Assembly (NCBI GenBank): GCA_010672165.1
Contig: JAAHHN010000058.1
Coordinates: 1 to 32,772 of the forward strand
DNA from: Spirulina sp. SIO3F2
GTDB taxonomy: Bacteria > Cyanobacteriota > Cyanobacteriia > Cyanobacteriales > Spirulinaceae
Length of the DNA: 32,772 nt
Reading direction: 5' to 3'
The position numbers were made by a program, and so were the translations under genes. A model generated the notes under the pieces. The model did no database searches and was not told where the DNA came from. It saw only the letters and a program-made list of their open reading frames with translations. Of this stretch, positions 12,814 to 27,437 are shown in pieces; within the stretch, counting starts at the first letter, position 1; each line of letters opens with the position of its first letter.

Positions 12814-14673
12814 ATGCTAGACAAAATGGAGGCCAGAGCAGATATTCTGCTGGTGGATGACACACCAGAAAACTTGCGCTTATTGTCCACTGCGCTCACA
12901 CAGCATGGTTATAAGGTCAGAAGTGTGATCAATGGGCGAATGGCTCTCATGGGGGCTAGGGCCGCGCCACCTGATCTAATTTTGCTTGATATTTGTATGC
13001 CCGGTATGAGTGGCTATGAGGTGTGTCAACAACTTAAGTCTGATCCCCTCACCCAAAAAGTTCCCGTGCTCTTTATCAGTGCTTTGGATGAGGTGCTCGA
13101 CAAAGTTAAGGCGTTTTCGGTGGGCGGAGTAGACTTCATCACCAAACCCTTCCATTTCGAAGAAGTGATCGCGCGAGTTGAGAATCAACTCACCATTCAG
13201 CTCTTGCAGCGATCGCTGACTGACCTCAACAACCAACTCGAAGAGCGGGTTAAACAACGCACTGAAGAATTACGACAAGAAATTAGCGAACGCAAAAAAG
13301 CCCAAGAGCAACTGCTCCATATTGCCCAGCATGATGCCCTAACCCAACTGCCCAATCGCAGTCTGATGATGGAGCGGTTAGAATCAACGCTGCGCGATGC
13401 CCAATCGCATCCAGACTATAACTTCGCAGTGTTGTTTTTGGATTGCGATCGCTTCAAGCGGGTTAATGACTCCCTAGGACATCGTATTGGTGATTTGCTG
13501 CTTGTGGCGGTGGCGAAGCGACTCAAGCGCTGCTTACGGAGTAAAGATATGTTAGCCCGGATGGGCGGTGATGAATTTGCAGTTTTGGTTCATGACCTTG
13601 ATAATCCTCAACAGGTACTGGATATTGCCCAGACCATGAATCATCGTCTCTCCCTAGCCTTCCATGTGGAGCAGTACGAAATTTTTATCAATGCCAGTAT
13701 TGGTGTGGTCTTTAATCGGGAGCAGTTCTACCAGCAACTCAATCCAGAAAAACCCCGGCAAACCCCAGCGTTCGTCTATGGGGATGCGGAGCATCTATTG
13801 CGGGATGCTGATACTGCCATGTATCAAGCTAAGGCTGAGGGGAAGGGACGTTACGAAGTCTTCAATATCCAAATGCATGAGCAAGCCATGCATTTGTTGC
13901 AACTCGAAAATGATCTACGCCGTGCGCTCGATAATCGTGAATTTTGTTTGCACTACCAACCGATTGTCAGTTTGGCAACGGGTCAAATTGCAGGTTTTGA
14001 GGCCCTAGTGCGTTGGCTTCATCCCCAACAAGGATTTATTCCCCCCAATGTCTTTATTCCAGCGGCGGAAGAAACAGGCCTGATTTTGCCCTTGGGAGAT
14101 TGGATTCTCCAAACTGCCTGTGAGCAGCTCAAGCAATGGCATGATGAGCGGCTCTGTTCACAGCCCTTAACAATGAGCGTCAATCTGTCGGTACGCCAGT
14201 TTACCCAAACCAATATTCTGGAGCATATTGAACGGATATTGGTTGAAACTAAAGTTCAGCCAGATTGTCTCAAACTAGAAGTGACCGAGAGTGTGCTGAT
14301 CGATCAGCCCGAATCGATTATGAAACTTTTGCAGGCTTTGAAAAATCTAGAGCTGCAATTGAGTTTAGATGATTTTGGCACGGGTTATTCATCACTGAGC
14401 TATTTGCACCGTTTTCCAATGGATGTGCTCAAAATTGATCAGTCCTTTGTGGGTCATATTGATGAAGCGCCGAAAAACCTCAAAATTGTTCAAGCGATCG
14501 TCACTCTAGCCCAAAATCTGAGTATGGAAGCGATCGCTGAAGGCGTTGAAACAGAAGCACAGCTTAAATGTCTGCGTCAATTGGGTTGTGAATACGGACA
14601 AGGTTATTACTTTTCACCACCGTTGGCAGCACCTGAGGCGGAGAGACTCTTAATAACAAACCCCCAGTGGTAA
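12814..14673 (+). CDS. Response regulator with GGDEF and EAL domains (c-di-GMP turnover)
   Basis: 619 residues in three modules. A receiver domain (about 8-128) has the acidic pair D15-D16, phospho-acceptor D59 (LILLDICMPG) and K111. A short coiled coil (134-168) links it to a GGDEF domain (about 170-350) with intact GGDEF at 251-255 and an inhibitory-site RxxD (R242-D245) exactly five residues before it. A loop of about 20 residues (302-321) is an insertion. The EAL domain (about 360-612) keeps E396, N457, E489, the DD pair 519-520, K540, E576 and Q596, so both synthase and phosphodiesterase sites look competent. It lacks a membrane segment and is cytosolic. Phosphorylation of D59 by an unlinked kinase would set the c-di-GMP output; no histidine kinase is nearby. 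ATG 12814 is the start. Confidence 0.93.
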   Translation: MLDKMEARADILLVDDTPENLRLLSTALTQHGYKVRSVINGRMALMGARAAPPDLILLDICMPGMSGYEVCQQLKSDPLTQKVPVLFISALDEVLDKVKAFSVGGVDFITKPFHFEEVIARVENQLTIQLLQRSLTDLNNQLEERVKQRTEELRQEISERKKAQEQLLHIAQHDALTQLPNRSLMMERLESTLRDAQSHPDYNFAVLFLDCDRFKRVNDSLGHRIGDLLLVAVAKRLKRCLRSKDMLARMGGDEFAVLVHDLDNPQQVLDIAQTMNHRLSLAFHVEQYEIFINASIGVVFNREQFYQQLNPEKPRQTPAFVYGDAEHLLRDADTAMYQAKAEGKGRYEVFNIQMHEQAMHLLQLENDLRRALDNREFCLHYQPIVSLATGQIAGFEALVRWLHPQQGFIPPNVFIPAAEETGLILPLGDWILQTACEQLKQWHDERLCSQPLTMSVNLSVRQFTQTNILEHIERILVETKVQPDCLKLEVTESVLIDQPESIMKLLQALKNLELQLSLDDFGTGYSSLSYLHRFPMDVLKIDQSFVGHIDEAPKNLKIVQAIVTLAQNLSMEAIAEGVETEAQLKCLRQLGCEYGQGYYFSPPLAAPEAERLLITNPQW

Positions 14674-23911: not shown

Positions 23912-24077
23912 TCAAGGCACGATTGCCCCCACTCGCTGCCAATAATCCTCATAAGCTTTCACCAAACCACGCCACCATCATCGCCTCCTCCCTCGGAATC
24001 CTCACCCAACAAACACCGCAAGCACCACCAACCCCGCCCTGCCCCAACCAATTCGGAATCAACAACCCCTGCACCAC
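23912..24077 (-). pseudogene. Frameshifted C-terminal fragment of an isoprenylcysteine methyltransferase-like protein
   Basis: One minus-strand frame reads LLIPNWLGQGG, then VRIPREEAMMVAWFGES and a stop. The next frame takes over at once with AYEDYWQRVGAIVP and a stop. Joined across a one-base shift they give the typical end of ICMT/PEMT-like integral membrane methyltransferases (RxPREExMMxxxFGExYxxYxxRxGxxxP). The catalytic N-terminal part is missing. It is a dead remnant. Confidence 0.6.
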
Positions 24078-24364: not shown

Positions 24365-25084
24365 CTAAGGCTCATAATTCGGAAAAAATGCAACAGGCAA
24401 GTGCTCAAAACCCGGCTTTGCGAAAAAATACCCTTGAAACAGCTCAATCCCTTCTTCACAAAACCATTGATACTCTCGATCAGTCTCTACCCCTTCCGCA
24501 ATGATATCAATACCAAGATCCTGACAAGTCCGAATAATGCCCCGCACAATTGCTTGACGGGGACCATGAGAATCAATATTTCGAACGAGGGACATATCAA
24601 TCTTGATACTATCAGGCTGAAACTCAGCCAATAAATTCAAGCCAGAAAATCCAGCTCCAAAATCATCGATAGCAAAGTTAACCCCGAAATTACGGTAATA
24701 GTTGATGGCTTTAGCAAACCACAAAAAGTCATTAATAACTTCTGACTCAGTTACTTCTAAGAAGATTTTATTAACAGGGAATCCTGATTCTTTAGCAACT
24801 TCAATTAGCGAAGACACTGCTGTCTTAGAAACTTCTATACTTCGTGGAAGGAAATTTAGATTTAGATAACAGTTTACGCCTAAATCAACAGCATTGCGTA
24901 TTGCATTGACACGAAGCGTTTCATCAAAACAATATCTATTTGCCTCATGAACTTTTTGAAAAACTTGGCTGGCAGACTCACCATTAGACCCACGGACTAA
25001 AACTTCAAATGCCTCAACTTGACCCGCTAAAACATTAACAATGGGCTGAAATGCAAAAGAAAAGTTAGGTAAAAACAAGTCCAT
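24365..25084 (-). CDS. Stand-alone EAL-domain c-di-GMP phosphodiesterase
   Basis: 239 residues from ATG 25084, consisting of one EAL domain. The signature is EVL rather than EAL (E27), but the catalytic set is complete: N77 (NLNF), E110 (EVTES), D140-D141 (DDFGAG), K161 (SIKID), E197 (AEGVET) and Q217 (FQGYFF). It should hydrolyse c-di-GMP to pGpG in the cytosol. TTG 25138 would give 257 residues and overlap the upstream gene by 32 nt; ATG 25084 leaves 22 nt and is preferred, though its ribosome site is poorly spaced. The protein is clearly paralogous to the EAL part of the BLUF protein just upstream (shared RQAIVRG, DLGIDI, EYQWF, EGI). The pair looks like an operon. Confidence 0.9.
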   Translation of the reverse strand: MDLFLPNFSFAFQPIVNVLAGQVEAFEVLVRGSNGESASQVFQKVHEANRYCFDETLRVNAIRNAVDLGVNCYLNLNFLPRSIEVSKTAVSSLIEVAKESGFPVNKIFLEVTESEVINDFLWFAKAINYYRNFGVNFAIDDFGAGFSGLNLLAEFQPDSIKIDMSLVRNIDSHGPRQAIVRGIIRTCQDLGIDIIAEGVETDREYQWFCEEGIELFQGYFFAKPGFEHLPVAFFPNYEP

Positions 25085-25106
25085 AGAAATAACGAGGCCT
25101 CCAACT

Positions 25107-26303
25107 CTATAGATATTGGGGAGCAGGGAATTGTTCAAAAGCAGGAGATGCGATCAAGTTACCCTGAATCAGAGTTATTCCTTCATCCAGAAACCATTGA
25201 TATTCTTCAACAGAGTTAACATCTTTGGCAACGATATCAATTCCCAAATCATCACAGGTCTGAGTAACGCCTCTGACGATGGCTTGCCTGGCTCCATTGG
25301 TATCAATATCACGGACAATTTGAATATTCAAAGCAATCATATCTGGGCGAAGAATTTCTAATAATTTGAGTGCTGCACGACCAGCCCCGAAATGATCAAT
25401 AGAGACCCTTAAGCCAACACCACGATATTCTTCGATAATTTGAGCAAAGTGTTGTGAGTCACCAATTAATTTGTCTTGATCAATTTCCAGAACTATACGA
25501 TTTAAGTTAATACCATTTCGCTCAGCAGCCTCCAGCGTTGACTGTATAGCGCTACGTGCATCCTTGACTTGACGAGCCATAAAATTGAGATGGAGGTCGG
25601 AGGGTAGACCTAATCTCGCCGCTGTACTAATTGCGATGGCACGACAACTCGTATCAAACTGTAACCATTCTTGCTCACTAATTTCAGGGACGATATTTGA
25701 AAAGTCTTCATTTTTCTGCCCACGAATTAACGCCTCATACGCTATGACACGATGTTCCTCTACATCAACTATCGGTTGAAAGGCAAAAGAAATTTTAGAG
25801 ATATGGGATGTTGCTGATTTTAATGAAACTTCTTTTTCACCATCCTTCTGCTGGACTGGTGACTGATTCTTGACCTTAGATCGCCAACGTCCTTTACGAA
25901 ATGCAGCGAGCAGTTTCTTCGCTCGTCCTGCTCCAAGCTGAGTAAAACTTGAACCCTCAGCAAAGAAATCATTTAAACCAATAATTTCATCAAGCTCTTG
26001 AGAATCAAGCTTAACAAAACCCATTGTCCATTCACCAAATGTTCTTTTTGCGATGGGTTCACGAATAATCGTAACAACTTTGGTATGCCGATTATCGTGA
26101 AGAATGCGTTCATATAGTTGCTCAACGGCTTCTTGTGTTCCTTCAAGAACCTGAAAAAAACTACCATTTTCATGGAGGAGTATGCCCGTAATCTTTGCTT
26201 TAGCGTTATTTTTACGAGACGTTTCGAGCAAACTGACTAAGTCTGCATCTTGCATGGGATAGGTCGTAGCACTACAGTAAATCAAGTGAATCAATAATGA
26301 CAT
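25107..26303 (-). CDS. BLUF blue-light sensor fused to a degenerate EAL domain
   Basis: 398 residues. Residues 1-95 are a BLUF flavin photoreceptor with the light-switch set in register with PixD-type proteins: Y9, N32, Q51, W92 and M94 (LIHLIYCS, ITGILLHENGSFFQVLEG, EWTMGF). A linker (about 100-170) leads to an EAL-fold domain (172-398). It keeps EAL (E190) and N240, but the second metal Asp is His (SIDHFG, H304), the catalytic Lys is Asn (N326), and the AEGVET Glu is Lys (K360). It is therefore probably not a phosphodiesterase and may sense c-di-GMP or bind a partner, as shown for E. coli BluF (YcgF). ATG 26303 is the start. The downstream EAL gene begins 22 nt later and likely supplies the active enzyme. 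Confidence 0.92.
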   Translation of the reverse strand: MSLLIHLIYCSATTYPMQDADLVSLLETSRKNNAKAKITGILLHENGSFFQVLEGTQEAVEQLYERILHDNRHTKVVTIIREPIAKRTFGEWTMGFVKLDSQELDEIIGLNDFFAEGSSFTQLGAGRAKKLLAAFRKGRWRSKVKNQSPVQQKDGEKEVSLKSATSHISKISFAFQPIVDVEEHRVIAYEALIRGQKNEDFSNIVPEISEQEWLQFDTSCRAIAISTAARLGLPSDLHLNFMARQVKDARSAIQSTLEAAERNGINLNRIVLEIDQDKLIGDSQHFAQIIEEYRGVGLRVSIDHFGAGRAALKLLEILRPDMIALNIQIVRDIDTNGARQAIVRGVTQTCDDLGIDIVAKDVNSVEEYQWFLDEGITLIQGNLIASPAFEQFPAPQYL

Positions 26304-26778: not shown

Positions 26779-26883
26779 CTATTCTGAGCCGCTTATCCAA
26801 CATATCCGAGGCAAAATCGCCCCTATCTTTTGCTGATAATCTCTATAAGCCTCGCCAAACCGCTCCTGCATCACCACCTCCTC
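26779..26883 (-). pseudogene. Second C-terminal fragment of an ICMT-like methyltransferase
   Basis: A 34-codon minus-strand frame reads EEVVMQERFGEAYRDYQQKI then GAILPRI and ends in TAG at 26779. A TAG (26884-26886) interrupts the frame just upstream, where AMER continues the match. The pattern FGEAYRDYxQxxGxxLPR is the end of isoprenylcysteine/phospholipid methyltransferase-like membrane proteins. It lies 50 nt after DUF6653 on the same strand and is a remnant of the same family as 23912-24077. Confidence 0.55.
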
Positions 26884-26933
26884 CTAACGCTCCATCGCTT
26901 GTACCTCCAGTTACACCATCAACGATTGCCCAA

Positions 26934-27437
26934 TCAATACAACCAATCTTGATAATCCGGATGGCTGCCCATTTCATCACAGAGCCACACCATACGATCT
27001 AGAAACCACGTCTTGCCCAACACCACCCAAGACAAACCCAATAACGTCGGCCAAAGCGTAAGGTGCCACAATCCCCACACACAAATCCCAAACCCGATCG
27101 CGTTCACCCCATTGGTAAACGCAATCACGGGTTGATGATGCGAGGGAATTGGCACTTGCTTTTGGTTGAGCCAGATTCGCTCACCGATCACCGCCTTAGA
27201 AGCCCATTGGCGGGTGGTTTGGGGCTTCGGGAAAATGCGGGGATTGAGCCAAATCCAGAGCAGTACGGCTATTGTGGGCGCGATCGCCCCCCAGCCCAGC
27301 CAAACCCGACTCCAAATTGCCCCAATCAACAGCGGCAGCGCACCATAGCGTGTCCACACACTCCACGGGTTAGTGTGGCGAGCCCAGACGGCGTCAGTCA
27401 TATGAAACGCAGCGGCGAGTTTTTGAGCATTCATCAT
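26934..27437 (-). CDS. DUF6653-family membrane protein
   Basis: 167 residues with the motif WARHTNPWSVWTRYGALPLL near the N-terminus and four likely membrane segments: about 33-48, 50-65, 112-130 and 130-147. It ends with LDRMVWLCDEMGSHPDYQDW. I recognise this as the DUF6653 family, whose function is unknown. ATG 27437 begins 3 nt after the TGA of the P-loop gene, with GAGGTG 6 nt before it, so translation is likely coupled. A decayed ICMT fragment follows downstream, and the transcript probably stops at the 26503-26534 terminator. Confidence 0.78.
   Translation of the reverse strand: MMNAQKLAAAFHMTDAVWARHTNPWSVWTRYGALPLLIGAIWSRVWLGWGAIAPTIAVLLWIWLNPRIFPKPQTTRQWASKAVIGERIWLNQKQVPIPSHHQPVIAFTNGVNAIGFGICVWGLWHLTLWPTLLGLSWVVLGKTWFLDRMVWLCDEMGSHPDYQDWLY

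Follow-up and report, generated by a model that had tools for sequence, protein, structure and literature searches.

Three described systems stand closest to the gene pair reported here. In BlrP1 of Klebsiella pneumoniae (PDB 3gfx), a BLUF domain and an EAL domain are joined in the same order as in the BLUF protein of this pair and, according to passages of PMC8846402 and PMC3989770, the BLUF signal goes through the interface of the EAL dimer to the EAL domain of the opposing monomer. BlrP1, however, is a single protein that carries a complete active site and forms a homodimer, whereas here the complete site lies on a separate protein. The PapB-PapA system of Rhodopseudomonas palustris is a heteromer in which, as described in a passage of PMC8846402, the BLUF protein is separate from the lone EAL phosphodiesterase that it controls. 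Based on a comparison by description, PapB differs in that it consists of BLUF only, while here a pseudo-EAL is fused to the BLUF domain. E. coli BluF (YcgF) is likewise a BLUF domain with a degenerate EAL domain, which is kept for protein contact according to an excerpt of PMC3509220. Its partner is the MerR-like repressor BluR, whereas in the present pair the adjacent gene codes for a live EAL. The pair thus shares part of its design with each of BlrP1, PapB-PapA and E. coli BluF and lies between them.

The lone EAL protein of the pair has its closest library likeness in the lone EAL phosphodiesterases RimA and VcEAL (NCBIfam RimA; PDB 6ij2/6ifq). Membership of the RimA family (NF052265) was rejected, as the score of 266.4 bits is below the 430-bit cut-off, and the protein also differs in that it sits in the tree with BLUF-EAL proteins, apart from 15 lone EALs. 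A literature search, with preprints and most subscription journals outside its scope, returned no description of this pair, of a heterodimer of a catalytic and a pseudo-catalytic EAL, or of an operon of a BLUF-EAL gene and an EAL gene.

Domain structure and active-site residues of the pair

The pair was found in a window of 32,772 nucleotides, the whole stretch of DNA analysed, from Spirulina sp. SIO3F2. Its genome has two genes of the PsaA/PsaB family, as fits a cyanobacterium. The positions of the features of the pair are given in Table 1. Pfam matched the larger protein to BLUF with an E value of 3.5e-32 (110.8 bits) and to EAL with 1.3e-40, and the lone protein to EAL with 4.5e-48; over 233 residues the two EAL domains are 43% identical. 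The mechanical open reading frame of the lone EAL opens at TTG 25138, but the ATG at 25084 is the likelier start because its orthologue in locus L002 begins at the same place. A scan for promoters and terminators gave matches no more numerous than in shuffled sequences. Directly upstream of the pair is a gene for a DUF6653 protein (Pfam; 26934-27437, minus), and about 10 kb away a REC-GGDEF-EAL gene (12814-14673, plus) adjoins minC/minD/minE-like genes.

Table 1. Positions of the gene pair and its features in the window
Feature	Position	Strand	Basis or remark
BLUF-pseudo-EAL protein, 398 aa	25107..26303	minus	ORF list; Pfam BLUF and EAL
BLUF domain, residues 4-95	26019..26294	minus	flavin-site Tyr, Asn, Gln and Met intact (BlrP1 Y7, N31, Q49, M92)
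Degenerate EAL domain, residues 169-387	25143..25799	minus	5 of 12 catalytic/ligand residues changed
His304 at the second metal-binding Asp position (BlrP1 D303)	25392..25394	minus	alignment to BlrP1
Ala324 and Asn326 at the catalytic Lys and Asp positions (BlrP1 K323, D325)	25326..25334	minus	
Lys360 at the AEG Glu position (BlrP1 E359)	25224..25226	minus	
Alpha6 (dimerisation) helix region of the dead copy, contains RQAIVRG..QTC.DLGI	25239..25322	minus	alpha6 role from a passage of PMC5301497
Intergenic 22 nt with GGAGG, between the BLUF-EAL gene and the lone EAL gene	25085..25106	minus	
Lone EAL protein, 239 aa, 12 of 12 checked catalytic/ligand residues present	24365..25084	minus	
Alpha6 helix region of the live copy (model helix, residues 175-190)	24509..24592	minus	

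The best solved-structure match of the full BLUF protein was BlrP1 (3gfx, 1.2e-47). We mapped residues onto BlrP1 numbering, by way of a Klebsiella plasmid gene that matches 3gfx residues 1-405 with 920 bits, and checked 12 catalytic and ligand positions of the EAL domain, picked after passages of PMC3989770 and general knowledge of EAL motifs. In the BLUF-linked EAL of the window, E275 is replaced by Q, D303 by H, K323 by A, D325 by N and E359 by K (Q276, H304, A324, N326 and K360 in its own numbering). The complete active site of a BlrP1-type BLUF-EAL phosphodiesterase is thus absent from this protein. The lone protein has all 12 residues, with EVL in place of EAL, and by its complete set of catalytic and ligand residues is a predicted EAL phosphodiesterase. 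An earlier note, made from the DNA letters, had named the loss of the second metal Asp at H304 and of the AEG Glu at K360 and had described the stand-alone copy as intact with EVL for EAL, and all of these assignments hold in the alignment. It had also placed the lost Lys at N326; the Lys is indeed lost, at A324 (BlrP1 K323), while N326 occupies the Asp site (BlrP1 D325).

Among structures in the PDB, the sequence of the lone EAL matched 6ij2/6ifq. Its AlphaFold model (pLDDT 79.8) had VcEAL 6ij2 and BlrP1 3gfx as best Foldseek matches, and in this model the alpha6 block is a helix that follows strand beta6. The model of the BLUF protein reached a pLDDT of only 46.8 with a 4-row alignment and was set aside.

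The residues that the BLUF-linked EAL of the window retains are E188, R192, D215, N239, E272, D302 and Q379. With E188, R192, D215, N239, E272 and Q379 its substrate side is kept, L002 is alike, and mainly the second-metal and catalytic set is lost in the window protein. This pattern would suit a light-gated c-di-GMP receptor in the style of LapD or FimX that binds c-di-GMP without cleaving it and signals to another protein, with the lone EAL merely clearing the signal. The Acidimicrobiales-group orthologues speak against such a receptor: R192 is replaced by C, K, D or E in six of the seven (L137 retains R) and N239 by K, Q or S in all seven. With these binding positions lost, c-di-GMP binding is unlikely as a function common to all nine loci described below, and we consider the receptor reading unlikely.

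Recurrence of the pair and descent of its EAL domains

A search of genome contigs returned five BLUF-EAL relatives, L002 in a Pseudanabaenaceae MAG (70%) and L003-L006 in Acidimicrobiales MAGs (44-48%), and three more matches to the BLUF part only. Whole-genome searches added three genomes: G696 and G697 belong to the same family as the genome of L006, and G829 to the same order. Altogether there are nine loci of this BLUF-EAL type (window, L002, L003, L004, L005, L006/L109, L122, L123 and L137), two cyanobacterial and seven of the Acidimicrobiales group, where L109 (EAL part) and L006 (BLUF part) are two unjoined contigs of genome G390 counted as one locus. The cyanobacterial loci have a GC content of 46-47% and the remaining ones of 59-65%, a point against cross-binning.

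At each of the eight loci with sequence beyond the BLUF-EAL gene, the next gene on the same strand encodes an EAL protein; L005 ends at a contig end. The two genes overlap by 4 nt in L003, L004, L122, L123 and L137 and are separated by 7 nt in L109, 19 nt in L002 and 22 nt in the window. The BLUF-linked EAL is degenerate at all nine loci, with 5-9 of the 12 residues changed in the eight complete copies and 7 of 10 readable residues changed in L005, which is cut by the contig end. None of the 12 residues is changed in any of the eight visible partners. As columns, the eight partners have all 12 invariant and the eight degenerate copies one; partners and degenerate copies are hereafter called live and dead copies. 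The flavin-site Tyr, Asn, Gln and Met are present in all nine readable BLUF domains of the pair loci. The ninth locus, from G829, was inspected after the pattern had been noted and fits it. A PapB-PapA-type arrangement, with separate adjacent genes for a BLUF sensor and a complete EAL, is found at all eight readable loci. As judged from the residues, there is good support for a division of labour in which the dead EAL stays with the photoreceptor and the live EAL stands alone, since every one of the eight loci that show both genes has it.

In the genome samples covered the pair is rare. Counted over the matches listed, both BLUF and EAL were matched in 1 of 386 genomes in the window's phylum (the window's own), 1 of 6 in L002's family, 1 of 296 in L003's class, 2 of 6 in L003's family, 4 of 19 in G390's family, 6 of 297 in G390's order and 1 of 396 in G390's phylum. 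These samples overlap, the window-phylum and L003-class figures come from the best matches listed, and in the searches of the window's phylum, L003's class and G390's order and phylum the best 4 to 7 candidates were scored per genome. Carriage by phages or viruses was rejected: the BLUF-EAL alignment, run against viral contigs, gave 24 pattern matches and 0 relatives.

The combination of a BLUF domain and a degenerate EAL raises the question of an E. coli BluF-type anti-repressor that acts on a transcription factor, with the neighbouring EAL being incidental. E. coli BluF has the same domain make-up (passage of PMC3509220), and the K. aerogenes homologue, which adjoins ycgE, shows the D303 to H change and has lost E359. 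According to the same source, in the part consulted, degenerate bluF genes usually adjoin a MerR-like gene. In eight of eight loci of the pair, a live EAL gene stands there instead. The list of window ORFs of at least 120 aa has 31 entries; the 19 of them that were scanned, and 10 neighbours from five other loci (L002, L003, L004, L122 and L137), gave no MerR-type match, and among the typed neighbours of these loci and the window no family other than the pair recurs. The BLUF-linked copies also form a clade of their own in the EAL tree, apart from enterobacterial BluF and BlrP1. With no MerR-type gene among the neighbours scanned, anti-repression of the BluF/BluR type was rejected, and a BluF-like role of the BLUF protein in general is in our estimate very unlikely.

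To place the two EAL domains, a tree of 42 EAL domains was built, from which L006, being a BLUF part only, was left out. The nine BLUF-linked EALs of cyanobacteria and Acidimicrobiales form one clade (support 100/99). Together with the eight partners and four single BLUF-EALs they make up one 21-row clade (100/100), with the 21 other EALs outside. The distant placement of the two domains that would have spoken against a common origin of the copies is therefore not seen. The lone partner has no BLUF domain of its own yet clusters with the BLUF-EALs, and its position within their clade points to descent from the BLUF-EAL side and not from the common lone EALs compared.

Three AU tests, uncorrected, were run on a 40-row set that predates the ninth locus. 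Constraining the partner EALs to one clade gave a fit equal to that of the unconstrained tree (p=0.503), with a log-likelihood higher by 0.39, and a single clade of all pair members was not rejected (p=0.183). A recent local duplication, with the four EALs of the window and L002 as one clade, was rejected (p=0.020, one of the three uncorrected tests). The earlier note had proposed a duplication followed by a split and had expected the two domains to be sisters. As an ancient event the duplication stands; as a recent local event it fails, and with it the sisterhood of the copies within the window and L002, while the broader form of that expectation, a clade of all pair members, is neither established nor rejected (p=0.183). 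From the tree, the split of the two EALs appears to be older than the spread between phyla, and the simplest reading is a single early split, after which the pair was inherited or transferred as a unit.

Several observations touch the surroundings of the pair and its relatives. On either side of the pair is a short direct similarity (about 23942-23991 and 26836-26884, minus; 50 bp, 76%; E 3e-5 in a single comparison) that resembles two broken copies of one protein fragment and could be a trace of the pair's insertion. The window's genome has another, unlinked lone EAL (L108, contig C136) that is 47% identical to the lone EAL of the pair. A single BLUF-EAL on a Variovorax plasmid (L069, 4854-6242) has its EAL complete, and no second EAL was seen around it by eye among ORFs of at least 180 aa; its open frame is without the first BLUF strand, and it was used for EAL comparison only.

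Selection on the two genes and conservation of the alpha6 helix

For the BLUF gene, dN/dS in the three ortholog pairs compared was 0.165 (window versus L002), 0.102 and 0.081; the EAL gene gave 0.100, 0.066 and 0.047. These values are to be read with synonymous sites close to saturated (dS 1.0-2.4). In all three pairs purifying selection acts on both genes, and the low ratio of the BLUF gene indicates that the dead copy is not drifting. This bears on the thought that the BLUF-linked EAL is merely decaying and that only the BLUF domain matters, a thought encouraged by the fact that the lineages differ in which residues they have lost. Between the cyanobacterial orthologues (window and L002), however, the EAL part has a dN of about 0.19 against a dS of about 1.21, much like the 0.18 and 1.26 of the BLUF part, and the alpha6 helix is nearly frozen. 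Mere decay is accordingly a highly improbable account.

According to a passage of PMC5301497, the classic EAL dimer is built from alpha5 and alpha6. Over alpha6 (BlrP1 327-354), 14 of 28 columns are invariant in the dead copies and 16 in the live copies, as against 1 in 15 lone EALs, with eight sequences in each pair set after omission of L005, which is cut by the contig end and is a near-copy of L109. The 15 lone EALs, from cyanobacteria and Actinobacteria, are our own selection from the best search matches, and their designation as RimA-like is our label and not the result of a RimA profile scan. Their mean identity, 0.58, equals that of the live set. None of 2000 random sets of eight lone EALs reached 14 invariant alpha6 columns (mean 2.3, maximum 7). 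In four single BLUF-EALs, 6 of the 28 columns are invariant, where random sets of four lone EALs gave a mean of 6.1 and a maximum of 15; the freeze is thus not seen in the family at large, though this comparison has only four rows.

When a 28-column frame was slid along the alignment, the best position in the dead copies was that of alpha6, starting at 336, with 15 invariant columns. In the live copies the best started at 302 (18 columns; DDFG and compound helix), and alpha6 came second (17 from 336). The nominal Fisher p values for alpha6, 2.7e-05 in the dead and 0.0064 in the live copies, are descriptive only, since the eight sequences of each set are related, in about four lineages, and the test overstates their independence. 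The block G-x-RQAIVRG-x3-TC-x-DLGI is exact in 14 of the 16 pair members, the BLUF-linked EAL of L137 and the partner EAL of L109 each being one letter off, and occurs in none of the 19 other EALs compared alongside. Strings like RQAIV are found in single BLUF-EALs and in some lone EALs too, so part of the block is inherited. The wording that the earlier note had called unusual (RQAIVRG, DLGIDI, EYQWF, EGI) is indeed common to both copies but not private to them.

At alpha6 position 347 (BlrP1), Gln is found in all eight dead copies and Arg in seven of the eight live copies, with Cys in L109, which makes this position a possible candidate for distinguishing mixed from like dimers. The compound helix has a mean identity of 0.71 in the dead copies versus 0.89 in the live copies. 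Non-degrading EALs often have degenerate compound helices, as noted in a passage of PMC3989770, and the weaker helix of the dead copies is a point against a fully BlrP1-like dimer.

The same interface evidence could serve another arrangement, with the BLUF protein as an inhibitor or competitor that light releases: it would hold the lone EAL in unproductive mixed dimers, and the EAL, once freed, would work as a homodimer. Dimerisation promotes the activity of known EAL enzymes (passage of PMC5301497), and the Gln/Arg difference at position 347 may be a difference in recognition. On the other hand, the table in PMC8846402 gives increased activity in blue light for its BLUF phosphodiesterase systems, and the oligomeric state of BlrP1 is unchanged by illumination according to a passage of PMC3989770. 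We regard an inhibitor of this kind as rather improbable.

A proposed BLUF-pseudo-EAL/EAL heteromer

The reading we prefer, with a probability of about 0.62, is that the two proteins are subunits of one c-di-GMP phosphodiesterase under blue-light control. It would be a BLUF-pseudo-EAL/EAL heteromer, with the dead EAL serving for docking. In this complex, the formation and stoichiometry of which we infer, the lone EAL would be the catalytic subunit and the BLUF protein the sensor. The pseudo-EAL, its activity presumably lost and c-di-GMP no longer hydrolysed, would act as the docking and transmission module and use the alpha5/alpha6 dimer face to pair with the live EAL. Gating would then take place across the interface, with one BLUF domain acting in trans on one live active site, and light would most likely raise activity, as in BlrP1 and PapB-PapA. 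Given that BLUF acts in trans in BlrP1, a mixed dimer would keep exactly the productive half. Such a dimer would account for the lack of a BLUF domain in the live EAL protein, the retention of the dead EAL, the frozen alpha6 of both and the tight linkage of the genes. Alternatively, the lone EAL could homodimerise and act without the sensor, and the constraint on alpha6 could come from another partner.

In its wider form, the proposal is of an asymmetric EAL phosphodiesterase made of a pseudo-EAL half and an enzyme half, with one photoreceptor gating one active site across the interface, an arrangement that would have been fixed once and would now be common to cyanobacteria and Actinobacteria; we give this wider form an even chance. 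Dead-looking EAL domains are found in many genomes and their function is rarely known. Here a dead EAL has long been retained next to one particular live EAL, both have a frozen dimer helix, and the pair is a clean test case for the idea that pseudo-EALs serve as the regulatory half of an EAL dimer. Should this be confirmed, the pair would be a light-gated phosphodiesterase that is asymmetric by nature and whose sensor, coupling module and active site could be studied separately, with a possible use in the optogenetic control of c-di-GMP.
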